Positions 38,819 to 50,311 of a stretch of 64,000 bases of DNA are shown here, one piece after another. The notes below the pieces were generated by a model. The model did no database searches. It saw only the letters and a program-made list of their open reading frames with translations, and was not told the DNA's origin. Source of the stretch: Flexilinea flocculi (GTDB taxonomy: Bacteria; Chloroflexota; Anaerolineae; Anaerolineales; Anaerolineaceae). Position numbers and translations under genes: made by a program. Each line of letters starts with the position of its first letter. Position 1 is the first letter of the stretch. Where the stretch lies: contig NZ_DF968180.1 of NCBI RefSeq assembly GCF_001192795.1, positions 186,001 to 250,000 on the forward strand. The letters run 5' to 3'.

Positions 38819-39346
38819 CTATTCCCAGGCGTGCAGCGCATTTCGATTCAATTCAATCACTGATTGTTTTTTCCCGGCGAATGTTTTTTCCATTACGTGT
38901 TCGATGCTATCAAATGAGACGACTCCGGTCTTTTTAACAATTGCGCCAAGCATCACCATATTGGCAGCTTTCTCATTTCCAAGGTTCTTGGCAATCTCAT
39001 TTGCATTGACATATGCAATTTGAATGTCCGATCTTGTTGCAGACTGCGAAATAATGGATGAATTGATAAATAAAAATTTATCCGGCTTAACCATTCTTTC
39101 AAACTTGATTAGAGATGGCAGATTCATGACACAAACTAAATCTGCTTCATAGATCAACGGGCTTGAAATCATTTTGTCAGATACAATTACGGTACAATTG
39201 GCTGTTCCACCGCGCATTTCAGGTCCGTACGAAGGCAAAAAAGTTACTTCTTTTCCTTCAAGCATGGCTGCATAAGCAATGTTTCTCCCGATCATCAGAA
39301 CACCCTGACCGCCAAAGCCTGAGAAGAACATTTTCTGGGTCGCCAT
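38819..39346 (-). CDS. korC: 2-oxoacid:acceptor oxidoreductase gamma subunit
   Basis: A 175-residue protein of the pyruvate/ketoisovalerate oxidoreductase catalytic (gamma) family: FSGFGGQGVLMIGRNIAYAAM at the N-terminus, SYGPEMRGGTANCTVIVSD, and NMVMLGAIVKKTGVVS. It carries the CoA-binding-type domain of the four-subunit enzyme. The start overlaps the beta-subunit stop (TAATG). It is the last gene of the operon and ends at the bidirectional terminator. Confidence 0.93.
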   Translation of the reverse strand: MATQKMFFSGFGGQGVLMIGRNIAYAAMLEGKEVTFLPSYGPEMRGGTANCTVIVSDKMISSPLIYEADLVCVMNLPSLIKFERMVKPDKFLFINSSIISQSATRSDIQIAYVNANEIAKNLGNEKAANMVMLGAIVKKTGVVSFDSIEHVMEKTFAGKKQSVIELNRNALHAWE

Positions 39347-40092
39347 TATTTCACCTCCTCAGGGCAGCGCAGATTGCCAAGCGGATAATAGGGGATCATA
39401 TTCTCTGTCAGCCATTTCAGTGCATCAACCGGTTGATATCCCCAGTTCGTCGGGCATGCTGAGAGAAATTCAACAAATGAAAATCCCAGACCTTTTTCCT
39501 GAACTTCCAGTGCTTTCATAACCGCTTTTTTGGCTTTTCGAATATTCGCCGGTGAATTCAATGCCACGCGTTCGACAAAAACAGCTCCGTCAATAGTAGC
39601 GAGCAGTTCGGAAACACGCAGCGGCATACCATTGACTTCTTTTTTTCTGCCTTCGACGCTGGTTGTGCTTTTCTGCCCGATTAATGTTGTTGGCGCCATT
39701 TGACCGCCGGTCATTCCATAAATGGCATTATTAATAAAAAATGTTGTAAATTTTTCTCCGCGATTGGCAGCATGGATAATTTCAGCTGCTCCAATGGATG
39801 CAAGGTCGCCGTCACCCTGATAGGTAAAAATGAGATGATTGGGGTGGACACGCCGTAAACCCGCAGCGACAGCGGGGGCTCGACCATGAGCAGATTCGCA
39901 CATGTCAATATTCATAAATTCATGTGCCACAACACTGCAGCCGATCGGAGATACGCCCAAAGTATCGCCCAGACGCCCTTTTTCTTCAACACATTCCATG
40001 ATCAGCCTGTGAGCAATCCCGTGCGTACAACCCGGACAATAGCTGGTGTCAACAGGCAGCATACCTTTTGTCGGTTCAAATATCGTTCTCAT
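39346..40092 (-). CDS. korB: 2-oxoacid:acceptor oxidoreductase beta subunit (TPP-binding)
   Basis: A 248-residue TPP-binding subunit with SYCPGCTHGIAHRL (the CxxCGH-like entry), GDTLGVSPIGCSVVAHEF, the TPP motif GDGDLASIGAAEIIHAANRG...FINN and GMTGGQMAPTT. Decarboxylation of the 2-oxoacid occurs here. The start overlaps the alpha-subunit stop by four bases. Confidence 0.94.
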   Translation of the reverse strand: MRTIFEPTKGMLPVDTSYCPGCTHGIAHRLIMECVEEKGRLGDTLGVSPIGCSVVAHEFMNIDMCESAHGRAPAVAAGLRRVHPNHLIFTYQGDGDLASIGAAEIIHAANRGEKFTTFFINNAIYGMTGGQMAPTTLIGQKSTTSVEGRKKEVNGMPLRVSELLATIDGAVFVERVALNSPANIRKAKKAVMKALEVQEKGLGFSFVEFLSACPTNWGYQPVDALKWLTENMIPYYPLGNLRCPEEVK

Positions 40093-41165
40093 TTGTATTC
40101 TCCCAGGATCTTTTTCGCTCTTTCATAGATTTCAAGCGATGTCGGGATAATTCCTCCAGTTCTATTGATCAGCCGGACAGGAAATCTTCCGCAAACGGCA
40201 GCTTTAACATCGGTCATCATTTGGCCCATATTCAATTCCGCAGAGATGACCACTTTCGTTTTCGGATTCACTTTGGAAAAAGCTTCTTCAGGGAACGGCC
40301 ATAAGCTGATCGGGCGGATCAAACCCGCTTTAATACCGTCTTCCGCCAGCATATCGATTACTTCGGATACGATCCGTGCGGTAGTCCCAAACGAGACAAA
40401 AACAACTTCTGCGTCTTCAATTCGATCCGAATCATATTTGACAAGTTCTTTTTCAGCCTGCCGATATTTCTCGAACAGTTTTTCAACATGCTTTTCGAGA
40501 TCATTAGGCTGCATACGCAGTGACTTTACAACACTGCGATGACCTTTTTTTGTACCGGACAGCGCCCAGGGTTTCCTCACGGCAATTTCATCTTCAGAAA
40601 TTGGGGCTTTCGGTTCAGGAAGCGTAACAGGTTCCATCATCTGCCCGATCATACCATCAGCGAGAATCATAATTGGATTCCGCCACTCATCCGCCAGTGA
40701 AAAAGCGTCATATAGTATATCGATGGATTCCTGAATACTGGCAGGTGCAAAAACTGGAATATGATAGTCACCGTTTCCACCACCGCGGGTAACCTGGTTG
40801 TAGTCAGCCTGTCCAGGCTGTATACCGCCAATACCGGGGCCGCCACGGGATACATTCAATGCTACCAATGGCAATTCCGCGGAACAGATAAAACTGAGTC
40901 CTTCCTGCATTAATGCAATACCGGGGGAAGCAGAAGACACAAACACATTCCCGCCTGCAGCAGCAATACCGTATGCCATATTAATGGAGGCTAATTCGCT
41001 TTCAGCCTGAACGAATTTTCCCCCCCGTTTTGTCATTTCACGGGACATAAACTCGGTTAATTCATTTTGAGGTGTGATGGGATATCCCACATAATAACGG
41101 CATCCGCCTCGGATTGCAGCTTCTCCAAAAGCTTCATTGCCTTTCATCAGAACTCGTTCACTCAT
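40089..41165 (-). CDS. korA: 2-oxoacid:acceptor oxidoreductase alpha subunit
   Basis: About 358 residues: MKGNEAFGEAAIRGGCRYYVGYPITPQNE (pyrimidine-binding domain with conserved YPITP), FVQAESELASINMAYGIAAAGG, SSASPGIALMQEGLSFI and SRGGPGIGGIQPGQADYNQVTRGGGNGDY. The last block is typical of ketoisovalerate (VOR) and 2-oxoglutarate (KOR) enzymes rather than pyruvate enzymes. The ATG at 41165 is preferred because AAGGAG precedes it by six bases. Fits with KorD, KorB and KorC to form an (alpha-beta-gamma-delta) complex that reduces ferredoxin. Confidence 0.93.
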   Translation of the reverse strand: MSERVLMKGNEAFGEAAIRGGCRYYVGYPITPQNELTEFMSREMTKRGGKFVQAESELASINMAYGIAAAGGNVFVSSASPGIALMQEGLSFICSAELPLVALNVSRGGPGIGGIQPGQADYNQVTRGGGNGDYHIPVFAPASIQESIDILYDAFSLADEWRNPIMILADGMIGQMMEPVTLPEPKAPISEDEIAVRKPWALSGTKKGHRSVVKSLRMQPNDLEKHVEKLFEKYRQAEKELVKYDSDRIEDAEVVFVSFGTTARIVSEVIDMLAEDGIKAGLIRPISLWPFPEEAFSKVNPKTKVVISAELNMGQMMTDVKAAVCGRFPVRLINRTGGIIPTSLEIYERAKKILGEYK

Positions 41166-41178
41166 CATGCGCTCCTTC

Positions 41179-41394
41179 TCATTCTGCATAGATACTGATT
41201 ACACAATCAGGACAAATTGTCGCACAACTTGCGCAGCCGATACAGCTATCCATATCTGTGATCGATGCCGGGTGATAGCCCTTTGCATTGACTTCAGTCG
41301 TACTGATTGCGAGAATATTTTTTGGGCAGACTGAGACACACAATTCACATCCCTTGCATTTGTCCACATTAAATTTCACAAGAAATTTTGCCAC
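41179..41394 (-). CDS. korD: KorD: 2x[4Fe-4S] ferredoxin subunit of 2-oxoacid oxidoreductase
   Basis: A 71-residue bacterial-type ferredoxin with two classic motifs: CKGCELCVSVCP and CIGCASCATICP, giving two [4Fe-4S] clusters that pass electrons from the TPP subunit to free ferredoxin. The GTG at 41394 is chosen because AAGGAG lies about nine bases upstream; a TTG at 41418 would overlap the preceding gene. Gap to korA is 13 bases. Confidence 0.92.
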   Translation of the reverse strand: MAKFLVKFNVDKCKGCELCVSVCPKNILAISTTEVNAKGYHPASITDMDSCIGCASCATICPDCVISIYAE

Positions 41395-41414
41395 TTGTTT
41401 GATCTCCTTTCGAG

Positions 41415-42122
41415 TCAAGGCTTTTTATCCAGCCAGGTCTCTCTCATATGCAAAGCGACCGGCAATATTCCATCTTTCATTGCTTCATTGATATCTTTTT
41501 TGCAAAGATCTTCATATAACAAAACCGGACAACAACTGAATCGAATCGGAATCCGTAATTCTTTCGATAGTTCCTGACAAAACTGATATCCCTGGATGAT
41601 ATCATCAACGCGTGTTTCTCTAAGAAGATGCGTGTTATTGATCAAACCCGTGATTTTCAATCCTGTTTCCTTTTCAATTCGATAAATATGACTGAGAGCT
41701 CCCTCTATCGAGGAAGTTTCCGGACGGTTTTTATTGATGACACAAAGTAATTCGTAATCTCCTTCAATAAAATACTTGAAAAATTGAATCAGAATCATTG
41801 AACCGCTGGCGTCTCCGCCTACATCGATTGTTACAGCGTAATTCTTATCCTCAAGCGGAAATCGGGCATTTGCGGTCAGAGCAGGCAGTTCCGCAGTGAT
41901 CTCTGATTGATAAAAACTGCCAAAAACTCTAATTCCAGCTGATTCCAGCAGAGATCTTTTCTCACGGCTGCGAAAATAAGGGTTTGCAATATCCAAATCA
42001 ATCAATGCTGATTTTTTATACAGTTTTGCACGTTCCAGGGCATAGTTGATGCAGAATTCTGTTTTTCCGCTGCCAAAATGTCCAACGACAGCGACAATGC
42101 GTTTATCCATCGCAAGATTCAT
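41415..42122 (-). CDS. P-loop nucleotide-binding protein of the CoA transferase/KOR operon
   Basis: About 235 residues. A Walker A loop GHFGSGKT follows the first strand (IVAVVGHFGSGKTEF), then LIDLDIANPYFRSRE resembles the switch/A' region of SIMIBI-class (MinD/ArsA/CobW-like) NTPases, and TIDVGGDASGS is a Walker-B-like DxGG. LLCVINKNRPET follows as a specificity region. No domain beyond the NTPase is seen. Its ATG overlaps the CoA transferase stop by four bases, with GGAGAAAG upstream, and it is followed 21 bases later by korD. Its role in the pathway is unknown; maturation of, or cofactor delivery to, one of the neighbouring enzymes is possible. Confidence 0.8.
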   Translation of the reverse strand: MNLAMDKRIVAVVGHFGSGKTEFCINYALERAKLYKKSALIDLDIANPYFRSREKRSLLESAGIRVFGSFYQSEITAELPALTANARFPLEDKNYAVTIDVGGDASGSMILIQFFKYFIEGDYELLCVINKNRPETSSIEGALSHIYRIEKETGLKITGLINNTHLLRETRVDDIIQGYQFCQELSKELRIPIRFSCCPVLLYEDLCKKDINEAMKDGILPVALHMRETWLDKKP

Positions 42123-43459
42123 CGGTTGGACTTTCTCCAAATTTTATTTTTTTCCGCTTCTTTAACTAATTCATCGCGAAAATCAGGATGAGCGATTTGA
42201 ATCAGGCTTTCTGCTCTTTCCCAGGTTGATTTTCCGATCAGATTTGCCATTCCCCATTCTGTAACGATGAAGTAGGCACAACTTCGCGGATCTGAAACGA
42301 TTGTCCCGGATTGAAAAGCCGGAACAATTCTGGATTTGTGGCGGTTTTCTTTCTTATCAAAGTATGTCGATGTCATACAGATAAAACTCTTCCCGCCTTT
42401 CGACAAGAATCCACCTGTCAAAAAATCAAGCTGACCACCTGTTCCGCTGATTTGGCGGAATCCGGATGATTCAGAAGATACCTGTCCAAATAAATCCGCT
42501 TCGACACAATTGTTAATGGTGATCATTTTGTCGTTAAGCGCCATAATTTCCGGCGAATTGACATAATCGACTGGATATGAGAGATGATCGCGATTTTCTG
42601 CAACCCATTCATATACTTCATGAGATCCAAGCGCAAATGTCCATACACTTTTACCTTTGTCGATATTCTTTTTGGAATTTGTAATTTTTCCGCTCCGATA
42701 AAGGTCATAAAAAGCATCGCTCATCAGTTCGGTGTGGATTCCCAAGTCTTTGAGATCAGACTGCGCAATAAATTTTCCGACGGCGGAAGGAACGCTGCCG
42801 ATTCCCAATTCAATGGTTGATCCGTCTTCAATTTGATCGACAATTTGCTTTGCAATCCGCAAATCCAGATCCGAAGGCTCTCCTGCTCTCATTTCAGGCA
42901 ATGGACCATGTTCGCCTTCAACAATATAGTTCACGTCGGAAATGTGGATTTTTTCATCCTTGCCGCCGAATACTTTTGGCAGTTTTTCATTTACTTCCAG
43001 AATAACAATTTTCGATTTTTCAAGAATGGCTTTCGAGGCGCTATTTGTTAATGAAAAACTGAAATACCCATCATCATCCATCGGAGCAACAGACATCATC
43101 GCAACATCCACGATAATGTGATTGCGATAGATCATCGGTTTCCAGCGATAATCAAGCGGAACAAAATCACAAAGCCCTTTTTCATAAAGTTTTCGTTCAT
43201 AATTGCCCAGATAGGTGCTTTCATAATGAAAAGTTTTCTGTTCCGGATCCCTTTCAACAACCTGCAATGGCCGCACAGCCAGCAATCCGCGAACTCGTAT
43301 ATTCGATAACGTATCTTTTCGATCTGCCAACGCTTTATCAAGCAGCTCAGGCATCGATAATGTACAGCCGAAATCCACCCAGTCCCCGTTTTTTACCACG
43401 CGTACTGCTTCTTCCGGTGATCGTAACTTTTGCTGATACTCATATCGAAAGGTCATCAT
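42119..43459 (-). CDS. acetyl-CoA hydrolase/transferase family CoA transferase (butyryl- or 4-hydroxybutyryl-CoA:acetate type)
   Basis: A 446-residue class I CoA transferase. GDWVDFGCTLSMPELLDKAL is the N-terminal substrate loop, IELGIGSVPSAVG the central nucleotide-like loop, and GTGGQLDFLTGGFLSKGGKSF corresponds to the GGQxDFxxGA motif of butyryl-CoA:acetate and 4-hydroxybutyrate CoA transferases. These enzymes move CoA between an acyl-CoA and acetate via a glutamyl-CoA intermediate. As first gene of a KOR operon, it would turn the branched or other acyl-CoA made by KOR into the free acid. AAGGA precedes the ATG. A leader with a terminator hairpin lies upstream. Confidence 0.9.
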   Translation of the reverse strand: MMTFRYEYQQKLRSPEEAVRVVKNGDWVDFGCTLSMPELLDKALADRKDTLSNIRVRGLLAVRPLQVVERDPEQKTFHYESTYLGNYERKLYEKGLCDFVPLDYRWKPMIYRNHIIVDVAMMSVAPMDDDGYFSFSLTNSASKAILEKSKIVILEVNEKLPKVFGGKDEKIHISDVNYIVEGEHGPLPEMRAGEPSDLDLRIAKQIVDQIEDGSTIELGIGSVPSAVGKFIAQSDLKDLGIHTELMSDAFYDLYRSGKITNSKKNIDKGKSVWTFALGSHEVYEWVAENRDHLSYPVDYVNSPEIMALNDKMITINNCVEADLFGQVSSESSGFRQISGTGGQLDFLTGGFLSKGGKSFICMTSTYFDKKENRHKSRIVPAFQSGTIVSDPRSCAYFIVTEWGMANLIGKSTWERAESLIQIAHPDFRDELVKEAEKNKIWRKSNR

Positions 43460-43569
43460 CTTTTTCCTTGTTTTCCCAGTCTACTCTAATTTTATGGTTT
43501 CTTATTGCGAAAAACGAAATTGTTTTTCCGTTTAAAAATTTTCCAGTCTTTTCAATTCATCACCAAAAA

Positions 43570-43628
43570 AAAAGAGCCTTGGGTATTTTCTTGTCTGAGA
43601 AGCTCAGATGAAATTACTCAGGCTCTTT
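43570..43628 (-). terminator. leader terminator (candidate attenuator) upstream of the CoA transferase/KOR operon
   Basis: On the minus strand AAAGAGCCTGAGTAATTTC and ATCTGAG pair with CTCAGA and GAAAATACCCAAGGCTCTTT, with a few bulges, and are followed by ten T residues. It stands about 110 bases upstream of the CoA transferase start, inside the presumptive leader. Confidence 0.65.
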
Positions 43629-43798
43629 CGTCCTTCTAAAGAAATGGTTTTAAGCAACAATATCGAAAGCAATTTTCGGATGATATTGTAAAAGAAATTG
43701 TTTTTTTCGAATAGATCCGTTCGAGTCCCCTTGTCGGTTCCCAATGTGATGTAGGCTGGTTGTTGTCTATTCTTTCGAGTTATTAAAGCGATCATTGA
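43604..43798 (-). CDS. possible leader peptide before the attenuator (about 64 codons)
   Basis: A short frame reads from an ATG at about 43798 and ends inside the terminator stem, so its last codons are the 5' arm of the hairpin. Shortly before the hairpin it contains KLLSILLLKTISL, a cluster of leucine and isoleucine codons. This layout is what a ribosome-mediated attenuator of a branched-chain amino acid pathway would look like. The region is AT-rich and such codons also arise by chance; no strong ribosome-binding site is visible. Low confidence. Confidence 0.3.
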   Translation of the reverse strand, partial: SMIALITRKNRQQPAYITLGTDKGTRTDLFEKNNFFYNIIRKLLSILLLKTISLEGRKSLSNFI

Positions 43799-44063
43799 AA
43801 TCAAATTTTTTAAATAATAATCCTTGTCTTCTGATAATTACGATTTATATCCCATCGATGCACGATTTTTATTATAAATTGTTCAATTTCTTGTGCAATA
43901 TTATTTTTATCCTCATTTTTCGTTGTATTATATGATAATTAAATGACGAAACATGATTAGTAAAGAATTCTGATCCATAAATATAAATTTATTAGTCTGA
44001 GGAAGATATCAGATTTTTAATAACTTTGGAAGAGCAGAAATATTGGATCGATTGGTTACTATC
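43799..44063. other. AT-rich gene-free stretch
   Basis: No gene is visible; promoter-like TATATGATAAT sequences are present on both strands but none has a matching -35 box. Confidence 0.35.
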
Positions 44064-49132: not shown

Positions 49133-50311
49133 ATGGGTAACAAAATGAGTAAGAAAAGCAGGCTGGAATTAGCAACGCAAATACAATCCCGATATCTAAA
49201 AGCGAACAAGGCGGCGAAAGAAAAAATTCTCGATGAATTTGTAGAGAGTACCGGTTACCACAGGAAGACGGCGATACGCTTATTGCATTCAGATCTTCGG
49301 CCAAAGACGTTCAAAAAGAGACCTGGGCGAAAAAAGAAGTATCCACGAGAGATAATCGAAAAGTTGGAACGGCTGTACGAGATCAGCAATTATATCTGCG
49401 GACAGCGATTACAGCCATACATTTCCGAGCTGATAGATATACTGGAGCGATGCAATGAAATGTACTTCACCTCCGAGGAAAAACGTCTGCTAATCGAGAT
49501 GAGTTCGGCAACTATCAATCGAAATCTGAGGGAATACAAGAAAAACCATCAAGGAAAAGGCAAAACCATGACGAAGCCCGGCGGATTACTCAAGAAACAG
49601 ATTGCGATCCGAACGGGGATGGACTGGGATGATAATCGCCCTGGATTTCTGGAGATAGACCTTGTTGCTCATTGCGGGCAATCAGCAGCAGGAGCTTTCT
49701 TTTACACGTTGACAGCTACCGATGTATGCACCGGTTGGACAGATAACTTCATTCTCCGGAACAAATCAAAGGAAGCCGTTGTGGAAGTGATGACTTTGCT
49801 TGAATCCCTTTTACCTTATCCCATCCTTGGTATTGATTCTGATAATGGCTCCGAGTTCATCAACCATCTCCTTTTTGATTATTGCAATAATCAGGAAAGA
49901 AAGATAATCTTCACCCGATCAAGGCCTTACAGGAAGAACGATCAAGCTCATGTTGAACAAAAGAACTGGGCCGTAGTCAGACGTTTGCTTGGATACAACC
50001 GCTTCTATACTCCAGACCATTTTTCACTCATTCAGCGAATTTATCAACTGAACCATGTGTTCAATAATTTCTTCCAACCTGTACGTAAGACCATTGCCAG
50101 ACCAGATAAAGATGCCGGTGTCTTTTCTCCTAAATACGAATCTGCTAAAACACCTTACCGTCGTATCCTCCTTCAATCTGGTGTCTTATCCATTCCTAAA
50201 AAGGCCTCTCTTGTAAACCTGTATATTGCATCAAATCCCGTCAAGATCCTTGCAGAAATCAATGATCTGCTCCGTATTCTTGCCGAAACTTCTTCTTATC
50301 AAACAAAGTAA
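49133..50311 (+). CDS. integrase-core transposase
   Basis: A 392-residue protein with an N-terminal helix-turn-helix (YHRKTAIRLL around 42-51), a basic linker (KKRPGRKKKYP), and an rve-type catalytic core with D176 in GFLEIDLVAH, D235/D237 in GIDSDNGSEF and E275 in NDQAHVEQKNW. It cuts and joins DNA ends. The sequence is intact. GGAGGAAAGG lies just before the ATG. Family: an integrase-core group often annotated ISNCY/IS481-like; exact assignment needs a database. Confidence 0.92.
   Translation: MGNKMSKKSRLELATQIQSRYLKANKAAKEKILDEFVESTGYHRKTAIRLLHSDLRPKTFKKRPGRKKKYPREIIEKLERLYEISNYICGQRLQPYISELIDILERCNEMYFTSEEKRLLIEMSSATINRNLREYKKNHQGKGKTMTKPGGLLKKQIAIRTGMDWDDNRPGFLEIDLVAHCGQSAAGAFFYTLTATDVCTGWTDNFILRNKSKEAVVEVMTLLESLLPYPILGIDSDNGSEFINHLLFDYCNNQERKIIFTRSRPYRKNDQAHVEQKNWAVVRRLLGYNRFYTPDHFSLIQRIYQLNHVFNNFFQPVRKTIARPDKDAGVFSPKYESAKTPYRRILLQSGVLSIPKKASLVNLYIASNPVKILAEINDLLRILAETSSYQTK

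Follow-up and report, generated by a model that had tools for sequence, protein, structure and literature searches.

An operon of Flexilinea flocculi encoding a CoA transferase and a 2-oxoacid:ferredoxin oxidoreductase (KOR) may be preceded by an orphan transcription attenuator that acts as RNA and leaves the 66-codon frame within it untranslated, a reading drawn from sequence comparison for which the chances stand about level. In the window (the whole stretch of 64,000 nucleotides that was analysed), a strong terminator separates a conserved promoter-like site from the first gene of the operon, and comparison with the same-genus genome G010 shows conservation at the nucleotide level and no coding signal. 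Beyond this, we infer regulated termination, an antiterminator and a signal. RNA polymerase would start near 43864 and produce a leader of ∼235 nt, and by default it would halt at the intrinsic terminator at 43629–43565; some signal that acts on the leader, whether metabolite, protein or a second RNA, would favour a competing fold and permit read-through into the operon, and this fold may form when the linker UUGCUUA pairs with UGAGUAA of the terminator 5' arm. If the attenuator is regulated, ferredoxin-dependent 2-oxoacid fermentation would be controlled at the RNA level, by a leader whose sensing part is exchanged between close relatives. The initial annotation had put forward a possible ribosome-mediated attenuator; a transcription attenuator before the operon is retained from that proposal on account of the terminator and its conservation in G010, whereas control by a Leu/Ile peptide is poorly supported by the substitutions and the ribosome sites.

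Terminator Hairpin and T-Run

The intrinsic terminator (43565–43629, minus strand) consists of an interrupted 5' arm (43629–43603), a loop (43602–43600), a 3' arm that extends to 43570, and a T-run (43573–43565). Both the hairpin and the T-run are beyond chance: the hairpin is stronger than dinucleotide-shuffled sequence (z −4.7, with 0 of 200 shuffles as strong), and a scan of the 405-nt leader for hairpins followed by T residues gave no equal of the window terminator in another 200 shuffles. The strong hairpin and T-run claimed ahead of the operon are therefore real, with the run counting nine T residues and not ten, and the distance of about 110 bases given earlier is measured here as 105 nt from the end of the T-run to the CoA-transferase ATG (43459). 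The window hairpin escaped a simple terminator scan, probably on account of the breaks in its stem.

The proposed comparison with relatives bears the hairpin out, as G010 keeps 66 of the 67 bases between 43633 and 43567 (98.5%); the sole change falls in an internal bulge, and the mismatches and the terminal loop are kept as well. The viral contigs searched contained no exact match to a 30-base piece of the hairpin.

Conservation and Distribution of the Leader

Upstream of the hairpin, the 3' part of the leader (43634–43699, minus strand) is 95% identical to G010, with 3 changes in 66 positions, and the 5' part (43700–43864, minus strand), for which no confident fold was found, is 83% identical over 165 columns. 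Good alignment between the window and G010 begins at the promoter: the promoter region is 85% identical and the spacer preceding it 52%, and the CoA-transferase gene has diverged between the two genomes with a dN of 0.042 and a dS of 0.86. Since the identity of 83–98.5% in the leader stands against this dS and against the 52% of the upstream spacer, the leader is under selection.

The putative −10 hexamer TATAAT (43871–43876, minus strand) is identical in the F. flocculi genome (G000), G010, G003, and G008, where it lies at −417, −346, −599, and −457 relative to the start of the gene, respectively. The putative −35 hexamer TTGCAC (43893–43898, minus strand), separated from it by a 16-nt spacer, is identical in G010 and is represented at the same place relative to TATAAT by TTGCTT in G003 and TTGTCA in G008. 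The TATAAT place scores best in G000, G010, and G008 and is tied in G003. A promoter scan of the window did not list this site, because the −35 matches the consensus at only 3 of 6 positions, and in that scan promoter-like sites were no commoner than in shuffles.

The leader itself is narrowly distributed. Blastn, which scored few candidates in each genome, located it in 2 of 147 family genomes; a 27-base pattern of the hairpin, allowing three mismatches at most, occurred in 2 of 400 order genomes; and the RNA model R1 matched strongly in G000 and G010 only. Weak R1 matches among the 400 genomes in G387 (E 3.8e-4) and G043 (E 0.0088) were judged to be chance, as were those in G006, G010, and G000 (E 0.34–0.91), the surrounding sequence having been inspected for G387 alone. 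A second blastn match in G010 (∼42 nt) was dropped, as it sits inside an open frame. Alignment of all four leaders was unreliable between the G000/G010 and the G003/G008 pairs, and a survey of the regions upstream of CoA-transferase genes (77 of 80 loci, with L082, L087, and L092 excluded for short upstream DNA) was discarded, as spurious antisense frames left many of these regions with no sequence at all.

Folding of the Leader and a Possible Switch

In riboswitches and T-box leaders, a metabolic operon is preceded by a long 5' leader with an intrinsic terminator at its end. The window leader shares this layout and differs in that no Rfam family reached its gathering score on it, which at that score places it outside the T-box leaders and the known riboswitches; sub-threshold matches on the leader (E up to 10) were to microRNA, snoRNA, and antisense families. 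Searches of the relatives' loci likewise returned no Rfam family above threshold, with two weak matches that both lie outside the leaders.

The alignment of the whole leader folds better than column shuffles (z −3.44), through the terminator only, and the 5' leader without the terminator folds no better than column shuffles (z 0.33). Single-sequence folds of the leader outside the terminator are weak against shuffles, and a candidate hairpin in 43634–43699, ACAAUAUC...GAUAUUGU, is weakly better than its shuffles (z −1.4). The linker UUGCUUA, which belongs to the 3' leader part, could pair with UGAGUAA; in partial transcripts the probability of this pairing reaches at most 0.44 for the window and 0.23 for G010, is often far less, and disappears once the 3' arm of the terminator is transcribed. 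In the 5' part without the terminator, the two sequences show two double changes, equalled in 25 of 100 shuffles, and covariation is unable to back a switch because the element is found in two genomes only.

An alternative is a fixed, unregulated partial terminator, which with constant read-through would only lower the dose of the operon or yield a separate small RNA of ∼300 nt that acts elsewhere. Such a terminator would agree with the conservation of both the terminator and the promoter-like site and with the lack of statistical support for a switch fold; the near-identity of the hairpin and the preceding 66 nt, observed in one genome pair, nevertheless exceeds what a simple terminator needs, and this explanation is considered unlikely. 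The attenuator acting as RNA can also be put in a more specific form, in which the ∼235-nt leader would be an undescribed lineage-restricted RNA sensor (a riboswitch or a protein-dependent antiterminator) that couples an amino-acid/2-oxoacid fermentation operon with its substrate or with the CoA or ferredoxin state, with UUGCUUA as the antiterminator arm, and in which relatives would have retained the promoter and the terminator but swapped sensors (perhaps for a leader peptide in G008). This form is tentative and unlikely as stated.

Precedent for the general arrangement comes from 5' terminators and attenuators found by synteny, of which many with fast-evolving sensors are described as uncharacterised (Naville and Gautheret, 2010; PMC2965389). 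Those attenuators resemble the window in that, at orthologous loci, a terminator stands after the promoter and ahead of the gene, together with a fast-evolving sensing part (PMC2965389). In the titles and abstract openings of the papers surveyed, such a leader is not mentioned ahead of an oxoacid:ferredoxin oxidoreductase operon, which speaks weakly for its absence.

The 66-Codon Frame and Proposed Ribosome-Mediated Control

In the mechanism of the initial annotation, a ribosome translating the 66-codon frame to the TGA in the hairpin would block the terminator and cause read-through tied to the supply of Leu/Ile-tRNA. The frame (43604–43804, minus strand) is present as claimed: it has a TTG start, contains KLLSILLLKTISL, and reads ...KLLSILLLKTISLEGRKSLSNFI before a TGA (43606–43604) at the tip of the hairpin 5' arm. 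The geometry has working precedents. A longer leader peptide of pil1 in Streptococcus gallolyticus ends in or beyond the terminator and leads to read-through (PMC3894217), and terminators of Escherichia coli a few bases past a stop codon are repressed by ribosomes (PMC4824070). The pil1 leader thus shares with the earlier proposal a stop of the leader frame in the terminator and translation that leads to read-through; that frame is translated (PMC3894217), whereas the window frame has neither a coding signal nor a convincing ribosome site. The branched-chain synthesis attenuator peptide of Staphylococcus aureus is likewise reported to combine a Leu-rich leader frame with attenuation (PMC5794164), but that system is biosynthetic, whereas the window operon looks catabolic and its frame is without coding conservation.

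How unusual the Leu/Ile run is depends on the frames counted. Among start-led frames of at least 12 codons it is rare, being reached in 7 of 500 shuffles of the window and 3 of 500 of G010 (two counts that are not independent), but without the demand for a start it is near chance, as 8 Leu or Ile in 13 codons in any frame was equalled in 43 of 1000 shuffles; the longest stop-free run was equalled in 74 of 1000. The frame is also open without indels in G010, which means little because 32% of equally mutated random versions stay open.

Substitutions between the window and G010 argue against a peptide as the conserved product. They fall on codon positions 1, 2, and 3 of the frame as 6, 12, and 4, a bias towards position 2, as against 21, 18, and 153 in the gene (P 1e-9 for the share of position 3), and the dN/dS of the frame is ∼1.2. 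Codons 42–66, which hold the Leu/Ile run, have 0 synonymous differences in 25 codons against 9.2 expected (P 2.4e-6), so the nucleotides themselves are conserved, and the run persists in G010 as near-invariant DNA. The peptide is thereby removed as the cause of the conservation; a peptide under added RNA constraint would still be compatible with these counts.

Ribosome sites are weak at all listed starts. Pairing with the 16S tail at the six in-frame starts gave −2.0 kcal/mol for one and 0 to +1.2 kcal/mol for the other five, compared with a median of −6.95 kcal/mol when 36 long frames of the window were each scored at their strongest start. Three of these frames are weaker than −2.0, and the control, which chooses among several starts in every frame, flatters the genes. 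The TTG start of the frame in G010 reaches −3.1 kcal/mol, with 3 of the 36 window frames weaker. The window frame therefore lacks a convincing ribosome site as well as coding-type substitutions between window and G010, and it is probably not translated. The case illustrates how the amino-acid run of an open frame can look meaningful when it is the nucleotides, and no peptide, that are conserved.

More distant relatives give a divided picture of the Leu/Ile codons, whose conservation had been put forward as a check. At a similar place to the window terminator, G008 has a terminator of different sequence (0 of 200 shuffles as good), and the terminator candidate in G003 is not beyond chance (101 of 200). 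Within the G008 leader (L005, 2983–3134, minus strand), there are two 45-codon frames that overlap and each have a strong ribosome site: the first starts with ATG, has a site of −10.1 kcal/mol that 24 of 500 shuffles reach, and stops 26 nt before the hairpin, and the second starts with TTG, has a site of −8.5 kcal/mol, contains ILLLNLSEGIEI, and stops 12 nt before the hairpin. This second frame holds 7 Leu or Ile in 13 codons, a number that 56 of 500 shuffles reach. In contrast, no frame of G003 is rich in Leu/Ile (4 in 13 codons; 490 of 500 shuffles), and the best start in G003, at −3.9 kcal/mol, is equalled by 489 of 500 shuffles.

Neither of the G008 frames aligns with that of the window, and in a Pfam search with one leader frame each from G003 and G008 (the longer form for G008) none scored above cut-off, with one sub-threshold match in G008 (E 0.017). 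The strong ribosome sites favour a translated leader in G008, and the peptide idea is accordingly weak for the window and not dead for the locus. Set against the substitutions and the weak ribosome sites in the window, the existence of the frame, its Leu/Ile run and the Leu/Ile-rich frame in G008 leave ribosome-mediated control of the window operon rather unlikely, and the attenuator acting as RNA is preferred.

Path of Transcription into the Operon

An attenuator of this kind would act on RNA that reaches the operon from upstream. In G010, 39 bases separate the T-run from the start codon, and no promoter-like site was found in them (defined as a −10 with at least 4 of 6 matches, A at position 2, and T at position 6). 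Because this gap is so short and holds no such site, operon transcripts probably run through the terminator. F. flocculi differs from G010 by 68 bp between terminator and gene (43477–43544, minus strand), which are flanked by AGACTGG(G)AAAA repeats, occur as a single copy in G000, and have no match in G010. The stretch holds a small inverted repeat and may be an insertion or a deletion. Below the terminator, G000 has weak promoter-like matches, of which the best is TTCGCA-17-TAGAGT (score 8.5). That a second promoter in these 68 bp drives the operon in G000, with the terminator merely ending an upstream RNA, would fit these weak sites and is very unlikely, given that the −10 of the best one begins 29 nt before the ATG and would leave a leader of under 20 nt, that G010 has neither the stretch nor a promoter-like site there, and that the far TATAAT is common to four genomes.

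Upstream, an AIR-synthase-like gene (45223–44186) runs in the same direction as the operon. It is followed by a strong inverted repeat, GTTGTTGTGTTATTTTT/AAAAATAACACAACAAC (44150–44106), which is not conserved in G010 and, read by eye, could terminate the AIR-synthase-like transcript. A T-arm-like sequence on the plus strand, GTTCGAGTCCCC (43719–43745), was set aside, as ARAGORN finds no tRNA there.

The Operon and Its Relatives

The first gene of the operon (42119–43459; all genes of the operon are on the minus strand) encodes a member of the acetyl-CoA hydrolase/transferase family nearest to butyryl-CoA:acetate CoA-transferase, with a TIGR03948 score of 534.2 bits, below the cut-off of 674.8. 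It is followed by a protein with a P-loop-like motif read by eye and without a Pfam or NCBIfam match (41415–42140), a 4Fe-4S ferredoxin-like subunit (41179–41418), and the alpha (40089–41189), beta (39346–40092), and gamma (38819–39346) subunits of a 2-oxoacid:ferredoxin oxidoreductase. The alpha subunit is VorB-like (NF005507, 472.8 bits; cut-off 399), the beta subunit has a TPP domain with NCBIfam matches below cut-off, and the gamma subunit matches TIGR02175 (92.8 bits; cut-off 81.1). An alpha subunit above the VorB subfamily cut-off is compatible with branched-chain substrates and is no proof of them, and the operon as a whole looks catabolic.

A search with the CoA transferase gave a match in 41 of 61 genomes. 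The closest proteins all belong to the same genus (G010, 91%; G008, 70%; G003, 69%; G001, 57%), and the next reach at most 49%. The order of CoA transferase, P-loop-like gene, ferredoxin, and KOR alpha is shared by G010, G003, G008, and G001. The AIR-synthase-like gene is upstream in G010 and G003, and the G008 contig ends too soon to show it. In G001, the operon is present with an upstream gene that is FtsH-like by eye and without such a leader. A near-complete genome of the same genus, G004, carries part of a CoA-transferase gene containing three TGA codons and a single TAG (C1:423651–424328; L032), probably a decaying gene, and near the operon in the window, a frame at 49133–50311 resembles by eye an insertion-sequence transposase.
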